This document shows, piece after piece, positions 32,119-38,308 of a stretch of 64,000 nt of DNA. A program made the position numbers and the translations under genes. This stretch comes from Bizionia sp. (GTDB lineage Bacteria > Bacteroidota > Bacteroidia > Flavobacteriales > Flavobacteriaceae): positions 1 through 64,000 of the forward strand of contig JAHDHI010000018.1 of NCBI GenBank assembly GCA_020631395.1, in the 5' to 3' direction. A model generated the notes under the pieces. That model was not told where the DNA came from. It saw only the letters and a program-made list of their open reading frames with translations, and made no database searches. How positions within the stretch are numbered: position 1 is the first letter of the stretch; each line of letters begins with the position of its first letter.

Positions 32119-32146
32119 AAACCACTTTGCGAAAGCAAGGTGGTTT
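32119..32146 (+). terminator. Terminator of htpG
   Basis: Arms AAACCACTTTGC and GCAAGGTGGTTT (one mismatch), loop GAAA, then TTGC. Confidence 0.7.
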
Positions 32147-32213
32147 TTGCATTAAATAAATTTAACTCATCAAAATGTAACAAACCTTAAACAAAAGCTA
32201 CCAATCTGGTATC

Positions 32214-32675
32214 ATGAAAAAGATACAAGCCATAATTTTAGTGTTTTCTACTATAATAGCAATCATTACCATTATAGATTTCAGCTTTACTGGGCAAACC
32301 ATTACCGAACCTGCTTTAAGCTCTAAAGCAAAACTTGAACGTTATCATAACGCCAGTGGAAATTCGCATACATCACATAGCATACATACTAAAAATTATG
32401 ATTTTTACGCTTCAGAAGAGTTTCAACATGAAATTAAAGACAATGATGCCTTACAATTAAAAACCTCACTTGTATTTAACGAAGTAAATAGTACCACGAT
32501 TATTAAATCTAATATTAAAGAAACGTATTCGCTTCGAATATACTCAGGTCTAATCTTACCTCTAATTTTATTAATAGTTATTGGATTTCGCTATCAATTT
32601 GAAGATAGATATGCTATTTTCACCTATGTTCTAATACTATTAAACGTCGCTAATTTTATTTACCTATGTAATTAA
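32214..32675 (+). CDS. Small membrane protein, unknown
   Basis: 153 aa. One N-terminal hydrophobic helix (~5-24), a ~75-residue soluble loop rich in His, Ser and Asn (HNASGNSHTSHSIHTKNY), then two C-terminal helices (~110-128 and ~135-150). The family is not recognised. It is AT-richer in codon use than htpG. It lies ~210 nt upstream of the ATP-grasp operon on the same strand and could be part of the same acquired segment. Confidence 0.55.
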   Translation: MKKIQAIILVFSTIIAIITIIDFSFTGQTITEPALSSKAKLERYHNASGNSHTSHSIHTKNYDFYASEEFQHEIKDNDALQLKTSLVFNEVNSTTIIKSNIKETYSLRIYSGLILPLILLIVIGFRYQFEDRYAIFTYVLILLNVANFIYLCN

Positions 32676-32885
32676 TACAGTATAGAGCCTTGATTTTACT
32701 CTTAAAATCCACTTTATAAAAACTAAATTATATTTTATCATCTATATAAAATAGACTCCAAAACTCATTTTATATAAAATCACTTTATGTATATATTTTT
32801 TTATAAAACTTAAGAAAAAATATCCGAACTTCGTTTATGCACAATTGCAATTGCAAATTTGTTTAAACAAATAGTTTATTAAATA
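32676..32885. other. 210-bp AT-rich gap before the ATP-grasp gene
   Basis: Very AT-rich, with runs such as TATATATTTTTTTATAAA. It holds a third copy of the CGAACTTCGTT motif at about 32824-32834. No gene was found. The AT-rich character may mark the promoter region of the operon. Confidence 0.45.
32815..32834. repeat. Copy 3 of a CGAACTTCGTT short repeat
   Basis: Reads AAAAAATATCCGAACTTCGT, followed by TTATG. It shares CCGAACTTCGTT with 15701-15712; the copy at 16728-16738 shares CGAACTTCGTT. Confidence 0.4.
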
Positions 32886-34313
32886 ATGAAAAAGCATATT
32901 GAGATTATTGAACCCGATAATTTTGAACCAGAGAATCATTTTTACCCTAAAGCATTGAATTCTCAATTACACTCAATGATAAGTCATTTTTTCAATCTAG
33001 GTCAAGAGCGTATCATAGAACGCTACTCACATTTAAATCCACAAGTAGATAAAGACGTTTTAAAATTGGTTTTAAACTATCAATGCAAGCATTTTCATTG
33101 GGGAGGGTCTGACCTATTTTATGTGACTACGGAAAAAGGAAATAGAAAAATGGTGATTTTAGAAACCAATTCTTGCCCATCTGGACAGAAGTCCATGCCT
33201 CCACGATCTGATTCTGATGAATATAGAGGATACAAATTCCTTATAGAGAATTCTTTTCTACCTGCATTGAAACGTAGACGATTGCCAAAAGGGGCTTTAG
33301 CTGTTATTTACGATAAAAATTATTTGGAAACTTCCGGGTACGCAGCTACGATAGCCGATTTAACAGGTGAAAAAGTCTATTTAATCCCACATTTCAACGA
33401 GGAGGAAAGACATACAACTTTTGAAAATGGGGTAATGACAATTGAATTGACAGACAAAACAAAGGTTCCTATTCGTGCAGCTTTTAGATACGTTACACAA
33501 AAACCTTGGAATCGCATCCCTCCTACAAGTAAGACATTTATCTACAACTCTACTTTAGTGTGCTTGGCAGGCGGTAGAAATAAGCTATTGGCCAATAAAG
33601 CCTATGAACTTTACAATTCAGAATTAGCAGAGTCTGGGTTGAAAATCAATGTCCCAGAAACCATAAAAGATGTTAATAAGAATGAAATCCCCCTATGGAT
33701 TAAAAAATTTGGAGGCAAAGCAGTCATTAAGAATCCATACTCCAATGCAGGTCAAGGTGTTTTCACCATTACAACGGAAAAAGAACTAGATGCTTTTATG
33801 GCTGGCAGCTACGATTACGACCAGTTTATCGTGCAAAGCTTAATTGGTCACTATAATTGGAGTTCTATGAGCGAACATGGTAAATTCTTTCATATTGGAA
33901 CTGTTCCCAATAGAAAAGGAAATATTTTTATTGCAGATTTAAGAGTTATGGTATATTCTTCACCTAAAGGTTTTTCCCCTTGTGCCATCTATGCGAGGCG
34001 TGCAAGAAAACCTTTGGAAACTGAAACACCTGAAGATAGCTGGACAGTGTTGGGCACCAATTTATCCATAAAAACGGCGGAAAACCAATGGGATTCTGAC
34101 ACCTCCAGATTGATGTTAATGGATAGAAAGGATTTCAACATGCTTGGATTAGGCTTAGATGATCTAATCGAAGCCTATATTCAAACCATTTTAACCATTG
34201 TGGCCATAGATAAAATGGCTCAAAATCTAATGAATCAAAAAGGTCAATTTAGAATGAAGCTTTTTGAATCTCTAGATAACGACAAGGCATTGTTAAATGA
34301 AATAATGAAGTAG
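32886..34313 (+). CDS. ATP-grasp superfamily ligase-like protein, unknown substrate
   Basis: 475 aa. An N-terminal ~200-residue region includes ILETNSCPSGQKSMP. The ATP-grasp signals follow: GGKAVIKNPYSNAGQGVF (~278-295, the glycine-rich ATP loop and lysine), an acidic DLRVMVY (~347) and LGTNLSIK (~393), in the places where metal and ATP ligands lie in this fold. Only ~100 residues resemble known ligases closely, so the substrate is open. It is immediately followed (5 nt) by an AstE-like hydrolase, arguing for a make-and-break pair on an amide or peptide. No signal peptide; cytoplasmic. Codon use is AT-rich relative to neighbours, suggesting transfer. Confidence 0.7.
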   Translation: MKKHIEIIEPDNFEPENHFYPKALNSQLHSMISHFFNLGQERIIERYSHLNPQVDKDVLKLVLNYQCKHFHWGGSDLFYVTTEKGNRKMVILETNSCPSGQKSMPPRSDSDEYRGYKFLIENSFLPALKRRRLPKGALAVIYDKNYLETSGYAATIADLTGEKVYLIPHFNEEERHTTFENGVMTIELTDKTKVPIRAAFRYVTQKPWNRIPPTSKTFIYNSTLVCLAGGRNKLLANKAYELYNSELAESGLKINVPETIKDVNKNEIPLWIKKFGGKAVIKNPYSNAGQGVFTITTEKELDAFMAGSYDYDQFIVQSLIGHYNWSSMSEHGKFFHIGTVPNRKGNIFIADLRVMVYSSPKGFSPCAIYARRARKPLETETPEDSWTVLGTNLSIKTAENQWDSDTSRLMLMDRKDFNMLGLGLDDLIEAYIQTILTIVAIDKMAQNLMNQKGQFRMKLFESLDNDKALLNEIMK

Positions 34314-34318
34314 ATATC

Positions 34319-35341
34319 ATGAATAAAGTTTTAATTATTAAATCTAAGGAAAAATTAAACATTTCATCTTTGAAGCGTGGAGTAATACACAAACTATTCA
34401 TTCAAATTTCAGAAAATTCACTCGGTATTCCTTGGCGTGTTCCTTTAATTATAATTAGAGGTCAAGAGAAAGGCCCAACAATTGGATTGACAGCAGCTTT
34501 GCACGGTGATGAGTTAAATGGGATCTCCACCATTTTTAAACTAATGGAAGACATTGCCCCTTCTGAATTAAAAGGTAATATTGTACTTGTCCCAATAAGC
34601 AACACCCCCGGGTATTTAGCCAATCAACGGTACTTTTTGGATAATGTTGATTTAAATAGGATTATGCCTGGAAAAACAGAAGGTGCTTCCAGCCATATTT
34701 ACGCACATCATTTCGTGAATAAGATAATTAAAAAATTTGACTACCTGTTAGACCTACATACTGCAAGCCATGGGAGAATAAATAGTCTCTATGTTCGTTC
34801 GGATATGGACAATGAACAAACCAGAGAATTAGCGTATCTCCAAAAAACACAGATTATCGTTAATAAATATGATGAACAAGGCACACTGAGAGCTTGGGCA
34901 AACTCAAACGGCATTCCATCCATAACCATCGAAATAGGGAACCCCAATGTTTTTCAACACTCATTGATAGACACTACTCTAAAAGGCATTATAAACACAT
35001 TGGTACATCTTGAAATGATAGAAGGCAAAGTAAAGGATTTAATCACTAAAAATGTTACAGTCTGTAATAGTTCCTACTGGATTTACTCTAAGAGCGGAGG
35101 TATCGTGGATGTATTGCCAAAACTTACCGACCGTATTGAAAAAGGGCAAATCATCGCAAAAATATATAATGTTTTTGGAGAAGTAAGAGATGTAATTATT
35201 GCTGAAAAAGAAGGTATCGTCATTGGTAAAAACATTAGGCCAAACTGTGAGGCTGGCACTCGAATATTACATTTGGGGGTCGATATAAAAAAACCCTTAC
35301 CTGAAACAATTCCGGGTCATAAAGATTTTACCCCCATATAA
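34319..35341 (+). CDS. AstE/aspartoacylase-like M14 metallohydrolase
   Basis: 340 aa. Zinc ligands of the M14-type fold are visible: HGDE (His62, Glu65), His147 in DLHTAS and the catalytic Glu205 in ITIEIGN. DLNRIMPG (~111-118) matches the substrate-carboxylate-binding NR pair of aspartoacylase/AstE. The C-terminal ~100 residues form a beta-rich domain with VIGKNIRPNCEAG. Family enzymes cut N-acyl or succinyl amides and similar amide bonds. It starts 5 nt after the ATP-grasp gene, so the two are translated together. Which bond it cuts is unknown. Confidence 0.8.
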   Translation: MNKVLIIKSKEKLNISSLKRGVIHKLFIQISENSLGIPWRVPLIIIRGQEKGPTIGLTAALHGDELNGISTIFKLMEDIAPSELKGNIVLVPISNTPGYLANQRYFLDNVDLNRIMPGKTEGASSHIYAHHFVNKIIKKFDYLLDLHTASHGRINSLYVRSDMDNEQTRELAYLQKTQIIVNKYDEQGTLRAWANSNGIPSITIEIGNPNVFQHSLIDTTLKGIINTLVHLEMIEGKVKDLITKNVTVCNSSYWIYSKSGGIVDVLPKLTDRIEKGQIIAKIYNVFGEVRDVIIAEKEGIVIGKNIRPNCEAGTRILHLGVDIKKPLPETIPGHKDFTPI

Positions 35342-35587
35342 AAAGTCACACCATATTATCTTGTATGTTAATATAGACAAGCATTACACCCTTTAAGCCA
35401 TTCTTTTTCAGCGAGGTACTTTCCCATTTGAAATTTAATCAAAAAAACTACCAAAACACATAGTCCAAAAAAGCAAATTTCACGTATAATTGACAATGTT
35501 TCATTTAGACATAGAAGAATGACAAAACATCCTTCAAATTTCATATTTTTAACCCCTTATACAAAACCCCTTAAAAGTTAACATTTT

Positions 35588-37177
35588 ATGATTCTTAAAA
35601 AATCAAAACGCAAGAAAACCTTGATGTTTCTCTTATTATGCATTGCAGTCAATCAATTTTCCAACTCTCAAATAGATGATCGTGTCGTTTTAGGCTACTT
35701 CCCTTCATGGTCGGAAAGTTGGACATCTGCAAACCAAAACTCCAAGTTGAGAGAAATCCCCGACTTTGTCAATTACGTATTCCTTTCGTTTGCAAAGCCA
35801 AACCTGTCCTATACTGCTGGCACATACGACATTTCCCAAACTGGGATCCAAACCCCTTACGACGGTTGCACCTTGAAAGAAAGTGTAGCCGCATTGAAAA
35901 ACAAAGGCATCAACGTAATCCTATCCATAGGAGGAGAAACCTATTGGGGAACAAGTGATGCCTACAACATAAACTACCAACAGATAAAGGACTTGGTAGA
36001 TGACATGGGCTTTGTTGGCATAGATTGGGACTTCGAGCCCAATGGCTCCTTTACCAACATAGGAAGTCCAGAAAATGTTCAACACTTCATAGATTTCTTC
36101 AACAATTCCAGAGCTTTGATGCCTAAAAGCGAAGGGTACATCTTGGCTTGCGCACCAAGTGGCGTAGGCGCTCTTGGAGGGTCTACAAATGATGACCCTG
36201 CTTCCCCATTTGCCTATGCAAACAGGAACACCCTAACTGGAGAAGACGACACCAACCTCTACAATGCGACAGTACCGACCAACGGCATCAATCTGTTTGG
36301 CTTTTCTGCTACGGGGCATATGATTCCCGTTTTGAACAACGTCGGTTCAAAAATCGATTTAATCGCCTTTCAAGGCTACAATGCGGGAGCCAGCACCAAC
36401 CGCTCGATAATGTATGATGCCTTTGCGTATTATGCAGAACAATACGACATAAGCATTGCTGCTGGAGTACACTTCCCTAACGAACCTTGGGGTCCTTATT
36501 ACGAGTACACACATGAAAATGTGGCTTCCTTGTCCAATCACATAGAAGAACATGCCTACAGAAACGACGACAATGATGGCATAATGATATGGCAGGTATT
36601 GATGGAAGGCACTGACAGCTCAGCCTACTCCTACCTAAATGTAGCTAGCGCCGTATTGAACGGGGTTTCCGAAGTTACAGCGATACAGAACGCAAACAAC
36701 TTTTCCATGTCTCCCTATTCAGGAGGGGTTACGGAAGGATGCAACCCTACGGGAGGAGGCGAGCTCTATTGTGGTGTTGGAGAATACGATGCAGCAAGTT
36801 CCTACCCTACAGCCAACACCCAAGTGTATCATGAATGCAAGATTTGGAAAAACCAATGGCATGCCAATCCAAATGAAATTCCAGGAGACAACAGCGTTTG
36901 GACATTTGTTTCGGATTGCAATGAAGGTGATGGTTGCACATTGTCCGTAACGGAAAGTACCTTGGACAAGATCATCTTGTACCCCAACCCATCGAGCGAC
37001 TACATCGAAATCTCAAACCTTGATGAAGCAAGAGAGTATAAGATATACAATCTATCTGGCCAATATGTTTCCGGCGGAACCATTGAAAGAGGTCAAAAGA
37101 TAGATGTTCGTGGATTAAACGAAGGTGTCTATTTCATTCAACTGGAAAACAATACTGCTAAGTTCATAAAAGACTAA
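35588..37177 (+). CDS. GH18 chitinase with CBM5/12-like and T9SS domains
   Basis: 529 aa. A signal peptide follows a basic start (MILKKSKRKKTLMFLLLCIAVNQFSNSQ). The GH18 barrel starts VVLGYFPSW and has the catalytic strand GFVGIDWDFEPNG at ~138-150, with Glu as acid/base. The first Asp of the usual DxxDxDxE is replaced by Val. Residues ~395-450 are a chitin-binding type module (YCGVGEYDAASSYPTAN, IWKNQWHANPNEIPGD). The last ~70 residues (YPNPSSDYIEI to FIKD) are a T9SS type A sorting domain. It would be secreted by T9SS to cut chitin. Its close neighbour 37436-38308 shares the binding and sorting modules. Confidence 0.92.
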   Translation: MILKKSKRKKTLMFLLLCIAVNQFSNSQIDDRVVLGYFPSWSESWTSANQNSKLREIPDFVNYVFLSFAKPNLSYTAGTYDISQTGIQTPYDGCTLKESVAALKNKGINVILSIGGETYWGTSDAYNINYQQIKDLVDDMGFVGIDWDFEPNGSFTNIGSPENVQHFIDFFNNSRALMPKSEGYILACAPSGVGALGGSTNDDPASPFAYANRNTLTGEDDTNLYNATVPTNGINLFGFSATGHMIPVLNNVGSKIDLIAFQGYNAGASTNRSIMYDAFAYYAEQYDISIAAGVHFPNEPWGPYYEYTHENVASLSNHIEEHAYRNDDNDGIMIWQVLMEGTDSSAYSYLNVASAVLNGVSEVTAIQNANNFSMSPYSGGVTEGCNPTGGGELYCGVGEYDAASSYPTANTQVYHECKIWKNQWHANPNEIPGDNSVWTFVSDCNEGDGCTLSVTESTLDKIILYPNPSSDYIEISNLDEAREYKIYNLSGQYVSGGTIERGQKIDVRGLNEGVYFIQLENNTAKFIKD

Positions 37178-37192
37178 AGTAGGCACAACCTC

Positions 37193-37223
37193 AAAGAGAC
37201 TGTTTCTTATGAACAGTCTCTTT
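37193..37223 (+). terminator. Terminator of the chitinase gene
   Basis: Perfect arms AAAGAGACTGTT and AACAGTCTCTTT, loop 7 nt, then TTC. Confidence 0.85.
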
Positions 37224-37435
37224 TTCTTATTATAAAACGACAAAACATTCAATAATACACAAAAACCTTCTTTAAAGCAATTTAACACAGAAAACCATAA
37301 AACAACTCAAATTAAACCAAACATATTATCGATTAAAAACAACATTTTAACGTAAAAGTTATTTTTCACTCGGAAGATTTTATAATTTAATCTAAATTAG
37401 AAACTAATTATAAACCCCTTTAAAATTAAACTTTT

Positions 37436-38308
37436 ATGATGCCCTCAAAAAAACCGAAAAACAAAAAAAATGTCTTATCCATTTTTCTTATCATTGTTTT
37501 TATCCAAATCTACTATCCACTTGCAAACAAGCCAGCATTTACAGAACTAACCCCTTTCTGGTCAGCCAATTGCACTCCTTCGGATGAAGTTCCCTTTTTC
37601 ATGACAAATGGAATGTTAGAAGCCACTGCAATGCAAAAAACAATTGATTATTATCCATTTCCACATTCTAAGGAAATCAAAGACGATTCCCCTTACATAG
37701 GTAACGAAGCCACTCTATATTGCAATGTAGAAGAATATGTTTCGACCAATTCCTACCCCAATGCCAATACAGAGGTCTATTATGATTGTAAGATCTGGAA
37801 AAATCAATGGTACGCAAACCCCAATGAGGTTCCTGGAGACAACAATGTCTGGGCAATGGTCTCGGATTGTACCGAAGGTCCAGGATGCACTTCTTCCTTT
37901 TGCGACATAAGCGAATACGAAGCCGCATATTCCTACCCCAACTCGAATACAAAAGTATACTATGAATGCATGATCTGGAAAAATCAATGGTATGCCAACC
38001 CGAATGAGATTCCTGGGGAAAACAATGTTTGGTTATATGTATCGGACTGCGATGAAGGTAATGGGTGTTTGTTGTCCGTGCCAGAAAATGAAACGAATAC
38101 AATGTCGGTTTATCCCAATCCATCTAGTGATTTCATTGAAATTTCCAAAATCGAAGTTAAAAAAGATTACGAAATATATGGCTTAAATGGACAATTCATA
38201 TTTGACGGCATAATAGGACGCAATGAAAAAATAGACATCAGAAACCTAAACAGCGGGGTCTACTTCATCCATTTCAAAGACTTCTCCATAAAGTTCATAA
38301 AGGAATAA
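37436..38308 (+). CDS. T9SS-secreted protein with two chitin-binding modules and no catalytic domain
   Basis: 290 aa. A basic start and hydrophobic segment (~12-30) are followed by a ~65-residue unknown region. Two CBM5/12-like modules lie at ~96-151 and ~156-211. Each has C..xEY, YPNxNT, IWKNQWYANPNE, NNVW and VSDC, matching the module of the upstream chitinase. A T9SS type A sorting domain ends the protein (~214-290, YPNPSSDFIEI). No glycosidase residues were seen. It could anchor cells to chitin, hold chitinase at the substrate or act as a chitin-sensing surface protein; this is inference. It probably arose by duplication of the chitinase gene followed by loss of the catalytic domain and doubling of the binding module. 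Confidence 0.82.
   Translation: MMPSKKPKNKKNVLSIFLIIVFIQIYYPLANKPAFTELTPFWSANCTPSDEVPFFMTNGMLEATAMQKTIDYYPFPHSKEIKDDSPYIGNEATLYCNVEEYVSTNSYPNANTEVYYDCKIWKNQWYANPNEVPGDNNVWAMVSDCTEGPGCTSSFCDISEYEAAYSYPNSNTKVYYECMIWKNQWYANPNEIPGENNVWLYVSDCDEGNGCLLSVPENETNTMSVYPNPSSDFIEISKIEVKKDYEIYGLNGQFIFDGIIGRNEKIDIRNLNSGVYFIHFKDFSIKFIKE

Follow-up and report, generated by a model that had tools for sequence, protein, structure and literature searches.

A predicted ATP-grasp ligase paired with an AstE-type hydrolase in Bizionia sp. and its possible link to polyamine metabolism

Ligases coupled to an amidase are a known theme, exemplified by GspS/A and YgiC/YjfC. In GspS/A of Escherichia coli, the amidase half cleaves glutathionylspermidine. 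GspS and the eukaryotic-type glutathione synthetases (GSS) form a circularly permuted class of ATP-grasp enzymes. YgiC and YjfC are cited as peptide-spermidine ligases in one paper (PMC12568646).

We analysed a pair of genes in a 64,000-nucleotide stretch of Bizionia sp. (contig JAHDHI010000018.1, positions 1 to 64,000; hereafter the window) and compared it with these and other described systems. It resembles GspS/A and YgiC/YjfC in structural class (Z 12.5-13.8), in the coupling of a ligase to an amidase that would undo its bond, and in polyamine context. However, the amidase of GspS/A is a cysteine enzyme fused to the ligase, whereas here it is an AstE-type zinc enzyme encoded by a separate gene, and the window ligase belongs to a different sequence family from GspS, YgiC and YjfC. 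The PF08886-type GshA (3k1t), an ATP-grasp dipeptide ligase of a two-ligase pathway, is the best full-length structural match; yet the window ligase is only 10% identical to it, no member of its family matches the Pfam model of GshA, and it has its own motifs and an AstE hydrolase partner. Prokaryotic GshB (PF02955) shares its domain family with a second ligase of related operons, but the latter scores under the equivalog cut-off and is absent beside the window pair. The partner has the catalytic domain and the Zn and Glu residues of DoeB and other AstE/AspA hydrolases; nevertheless it is far under the DoeB cut-off and its family varies at the substrate arginine. Another ATP-grasp enzyme, the E-64 ligase Cp1B (9cjn, Foldseek E 1.9e-7), belongs to a pathway that yields a product with an amine such as agmatine, but it is fungal, and it leaves attachment of the amine to a separate adenylating enzyme. 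In the open-licence papers searched, we found no description of the ligase family, its AstE partner or their neighbourhood, and homospermidine and ATP-grasp were not found together.

Our tentative proposal, to which we give a probability of roughly 0.42, is that the ligase joins an amine of the polyamine pathway in an amide bond and that AstE is the reverse enzyme.

Sequence and predicted structure of the ligase

Both reading frames lie where a preliminary description of the locus had placed them, on the same strand and separated by 5 bp (Table 1). The ATP loop, D-L-R and asparagine motifs that it had picked out are present, and K282, the N287-x-G-Q290 loop, Q317, D351-L-R353, R371 and T391-N392-x-S394 are invariant in 66/66 homologues. 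So are E93, N95, S96, P98, S99, G100 and K102 of the N-terminal half, where the motif reads ETNSCPSGQKSMP in the window and ENNSCPSGQKSMP in most relatives. The invariant motifs of the family can be written E-x-NSxPSGxKSMP and RYxTxxPW; no conserved E-x-N was found near the C-terminus in the 66-homologue alignment.

Table 1. Features of the pair and its surroundings in the window.
Feature	Position	Strand	Basis or remark
ATP-grasp ligase, predicted GSS/GspS/GshA structural class, 475 aa	32886..34313	+	without Pfam/NCBIfam family
Ligase codons 93-105 (ETNSCPSGQKSMP), E93-x-N95-S96, putative displaced Mg-binding strand	33162..33200	+	conservation in 66 homologues
Ligase codons 281-291 (IKNPYSNAGQG), ATP loop	33726..33758	+	invariant residues in homologues
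Ligase codons 351-353, D-L-R Mg/phosphate motif	33936..33944	+	conservation in homologues
AstE/AspA-type zinc amidohydrolase, 340 aa; nearest curated relatives DoeB-like deacetylases	34319..35341	+	PF24827, 4.8e-35
Small membrane protein, 153 aa, outside the system	32214..32675	+	75% identity copy in same-genus genome G618 (L135) without the pair
Segment missing from same-genus genome G781 (64 bp in place): pair plus genus-resident membrane-protein gene	32129..35481		genome comparison

None of the 66 homologues, scanned singly against Pfam and NCBIfam, reached the cut-off of a curated family that would name it. The window ligase reaches no Pfam or NCBIfam cut-off either; its residues 212-316 weakly resemble glutathione synthase, and it scores 16.3 bits with the curated RimK model (cut-off 143.4). 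The GSP_synth family gave no profile match at E<=1 to the window ligase or the 66 members, and searches of solved structures with the ligase sequence, single or as a profile, returned nothing meaningful.

The AlphaFold model built from a 66-sequence alignment has a pLDDT of 93.1 and a pTM of 0.93 (an earlier model from 12 sequences had a pLDDT of 78), and 3k1t is the top VIA-align match of both models. It aligns to residues 45-449 of the model with Z 17.8 (327 aligned residues, rmsd 4.1), about 4 Z units above the next rows (~14), which include homoglutathione synthetase 3kal (14.0), YjfC (13.8), human GSS (13.4), GspS (13.3) and YgiC (13.2). In the structural search, residues 11-449 were aligned to 3k1t, 3kal, 2hgs, 2io9 and 7uk6, whereas for the canonical ATP-grasp enzymes ArgX, Ddl and RimK the match does not begin until around residue 118-137. 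The top Foldseek matches were 3n6x (GspS-like), yeast GSS and Cp1B (E 6e-9 to 2e-7). The predicted fold is that of the gamma-glutamylcysteine synthetase/glutathione synthetase/glutathionylspermidine synthetase structural class. Because the whole chain matches structures of this class, the N-terminal half that had earlier gone unrecognised is the class's own and not a new fold. Given the full-length match and the invariance of the E93-x-N95 motif, we infer that the ligase is circularly permuted, with this strand of the Mg site moved to the front.

The fold class leaves the substrate unfixed, which weighs against our proposal since GshA and GSS take amino acids and no polyamines. The lead of about 4 Z units held by 3k1t, a putative gamma-glutamylcysteine synthetase, would suit another product, a glutathione-like dipeptide (gamma-glutamyl-X, X perhaps being cysteine) that a GshB-like ligase, where there is one, extends and AstE degrades. 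We regard this as rather unlikely: at E<=1 not one of the 66 members hit PF08886, and none of them matches the curated GshA model either. A search for PF08886 in the window's genome was uninformative, as it gave no match there and none in the control genomes.

Hydrolase partner, distribution and origin of the pair

The partner scores 121.3 bits with PF24827 (cut-off 25), which places it in the AstE/AspA family, and has matches in the PDB (3cdx, 6twl). The preliminary description had seen a metallohydrolase with HGDE (H62, E65), DLHTAS (H147) and a catalytic glutamate (E205), and this assignment is borne out by the PF24827 match and by conservation in 82 homologues (H62 in 80; E65, H147 and E205 in all). 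The substrate pair of aspartoacylase that it had also named exists in the window as N113-R114, but only its first half holds for the family: N113 is found in 82/82 homologues, whereas residue 114 varies (41 H, 40 R, 1 A), and the partner does not qualify as an aspartoacylase on this pair. Since position 114 varies in this way, an aspartoacylase-like carboxylate clamp is no family feature of the partner.

The ligase was found in 9 of the 395 sampled genomes of the window's phylum, in 9/397 genomes of its own family and in 118 of the 199 sampled genomes of another set, family f5 of the window's class. It also occurs in 39/291 genomes of the phylum of locus L012, which we infer to differ from the window's, as it was read from a separate genome set (hereafter the second phylum). 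A gene order survey found AstE near the ligase in 57 of 68 loci; in the second phylum it lies directly downstream in 25/31, and two of the six exceptions are at contig ends. The pairing is conserved across two phyla. The earlier idea of a pair of unlisted type that makes and breaks an amide bond could have failed on co-conservation; it is instead supported by it.

Of the 31 second-phylum loci, 17 have a LysR-type regulator gene as the immediate upstream neighbour of the pair; at L012:7018-7995 it overlaps the ligase start, and a mechanosensitive-channel gene comes after the pair. These neighbours would agree with a pair that makes and removes a small-peptide or acyl-amino-acid osmolyte, as in N-acetylglutaminylglutamine amide (NAGGN) or ectoine metabolism, and so would the nearest curated model of the partner, DoeB, a deacetylase of ectoine catabolism (7.3e-29; 100.8 bits, equivalog cut-off 402.7). 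Yet NhaR, the best curated match of the single regulator scanned (3.1e-39), stays below its cut-off, genes for ectoine or NAGGN were not seen near the pair, and the polyamine linkage described below would be left unexplained. We consider an osmolyte improbable.

The window copy is most likely the product of horizontal transfer, because it is nested in the clade of another phylum and the site is empty in a genome of the same genus. In a quick tree of 98 ligase sequences (LG+G4), the window copy groups with L010, L067 and L011 inside the clade of the second phylum (33-row set, SH-aLRT 99) and is well separated from most of the remaining Bacteroidota copies. In the genome with the empty site (G781), the flanks align and 64 bp stand in place of the missing segment. 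Acquisition of the pair had been proposed before, and these results bear it out. The upstream membrane protein does not share this history: its co-acquisition was rejected because G618 keeps the gene without the pair. Base composition was likewise rejected as evidence of acquisition. The flanks are AT-rich, as had been noted, with spacers of GC 0.20 and 0.29 against 0.385 for the whole window, but the genes of the pair are ordinary (0.361 and 0.357; htpG 0.376). Plasmid carriage was rejected as well, as PLSDB gave no match.

Other features were observed around these copies. Two proteins are encoded just 3' of the window pair (35588-38308): one is GH18 chitinase-like and has a secretion tail, and the other is shorter and has C-terminal repeats in common with it. 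An apparently full isc iron-sulphur operon is near the pair at L011:306-5533.

Second ligases and polyamine genes at related loci

A second ligase, with a GSH-S_ATP domain (1e-25 to 3e-27), is present in about 43 of the 68 loci (44 were counted, one being a RimK), usually between the first ligase and AstE. Its score with the glutathione synthase equivalog is 136.5 bits (cut-off 272), and near its C-terminus it carries S-E-I-N-T, like the E-x-N of canonical ATP-grasp enzymes. In many operons its gene overlaps the stop of the first ligase gene as in a gshA-gshB operon, an arrangement that speaks for the glutathione-like dipeptide introduced above. That product is harder to reconcile with the window and second-phylum pairs, none of which has an adjoining second ligase; the window's genome has a GshB-like candidate elsewhere (C68, about 110 bits with the second-ligase profile).

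Genes of polyamine metabolism are frequent within ~8 kb of the ligase: among the 68 loci, we counted a short arginine decarboxylase in 28, an agmatinase in 24 and a deoxyhypusine-synthase-like (DHS-like) protein in 24. Since the DHS-like SpeY converts putrescine to homospermidine (PMC9992855), SpeA, SpeB and the DHS-like protein can be read as a route to homospermidine; hss-gss clusters were proposed to yield glutathionylhomospermidine (PMC9992855). The gene orders are permuted, divergent or interleaved. At L073 speB and DHS flank the ligase and the gene ends overlap, L104 and L106 have the order ligase-speA-speB-DHS-second ligase-AstE, and L102 and L116 are similar. On the ligase tree, the state of polyamine linkage shows 14 or more changes. 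If polyamine genes adjoined a dipeptide pathway because both systems serve stress protection, this repeated insertion into polyamine operons would be left unexplained.

Among the f5 genomes, 49 have ligase and DHS, 69 only the ligase, 14 only DHS and 67 neither, a co-occurrence above expectation (Fisher p 3.3e-4, uncorrected for relatedness); the two genes are at most 10 kb apart in 32 of the 49 genomes with both. As 69 of the 118 ligase-bearing genomes lack a DHS-like gene at the threshold used, homospermidine is not an obligatory substrate, and agmatine or putrescine would still be compatible with them. No other observation argues as strongly for a functional tie as L010: its ligase is 90% identical to that of the window, and its pair directly precedes a speA-speB-DHS cluster of the same orientation. 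The second-phylum relatives of this pair lack such linkage, so the association is an independent re-association. Two further observations count against our proposal of a polyamine-pathway amine: the pair has no polyamine-gene linkage in the 31 second-phylum loci, and the speA-speB-DHS cluster of the window's genome is on a different contig.

In 22 loci, a small acidic protein is encoded close to the ligase or the DHS-like gene. It could be the target of a ligase that modifies proteins or peptides in a RimK-like manner, with AstE as the trimming enzyme. Enzymes such as ArgX and LysX act on a carrier protein and match the ligase model at Z about 14 in VIA-align, weak RimK-family profile matches occur in 44/66 ligase members (best E 6.7e-05), and a pair of RimK and AstE type exists at L012:2332-4230. 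Against this, the full-length structural matches are small-molecule ligases, and neither the window nor the second phylum has the small acidic protein next to the pair; that of the window's genome adjoins the DHS-like gene on the other contig. This is the least supported of the alternatives and we hold it to be very improbable.

The small acidic protein (~80-150 aa) has no Pfam match above cut-off (L023:6410-6619, L010:14200-14448, L083:14595-14882). In the other pair of L012 (+ strand), RimK is above the S6-glutamate ligase cut-off and is directly followed by an AstE relative with 29% identity to the window AstE; a comparable pair is in L158. Some loci have a ligase without AstE. At L020:8072-10260, L074 and L075, deep-branching ligases lie beside a TauE/SafE permease and a response regulator and may have another function. 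At L070:7894-10284 and L071, the ligase is followed by EamA-type transporter genes, perhaps for product export, and at L105:5469-10542 and L108 it lies between a chorismate-binding enzyme/class-IV aminotransferase and formate-tetrahydrofolate ligase.

Proposed function and its meaning

The linkage to polyamine genes, together with a second, glutathione-synthetase-like ligase, allows a concrete substrate hypothesis for the proposal that the pair makes and breaks an amide of a polyamine-pathway amine. The ligase would activate an amino acid or small peptide by phosphorylating its carboxylate, following acyl-phosphate chemistry, and condense the activated carboxylate with an amine, most likely a polyamine or precursor such as agmatine, putrescine or homospermidine. 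The zinc enzyme AstE would then hydrolyse the same amide and free the amine, a role that would be analogous to that of the amidase half of E. coli GspS/A. A fuller version, which we find doubtful, is a conjugate pathway of Bacteroidota common to the second phylum: two glutathione-type ligases would attach a growing peptide to agmatine, putrescine or homospermidine, and AstE would recycle the product, in functional parallel to glutathionylspermidine.

The neighbourhoods of the relatives yield a substrate hypothesis that was beyond the reach of the window alone. They bring forward a ligase family without a Pfam or NCBIfam entry whose pairing with a hydrolase is conserved and whose class of substrate can be tested. 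Were the proposal confirmed, bacterial physiology would gain a new polyamine conjugate or glutathione-like metabolite.
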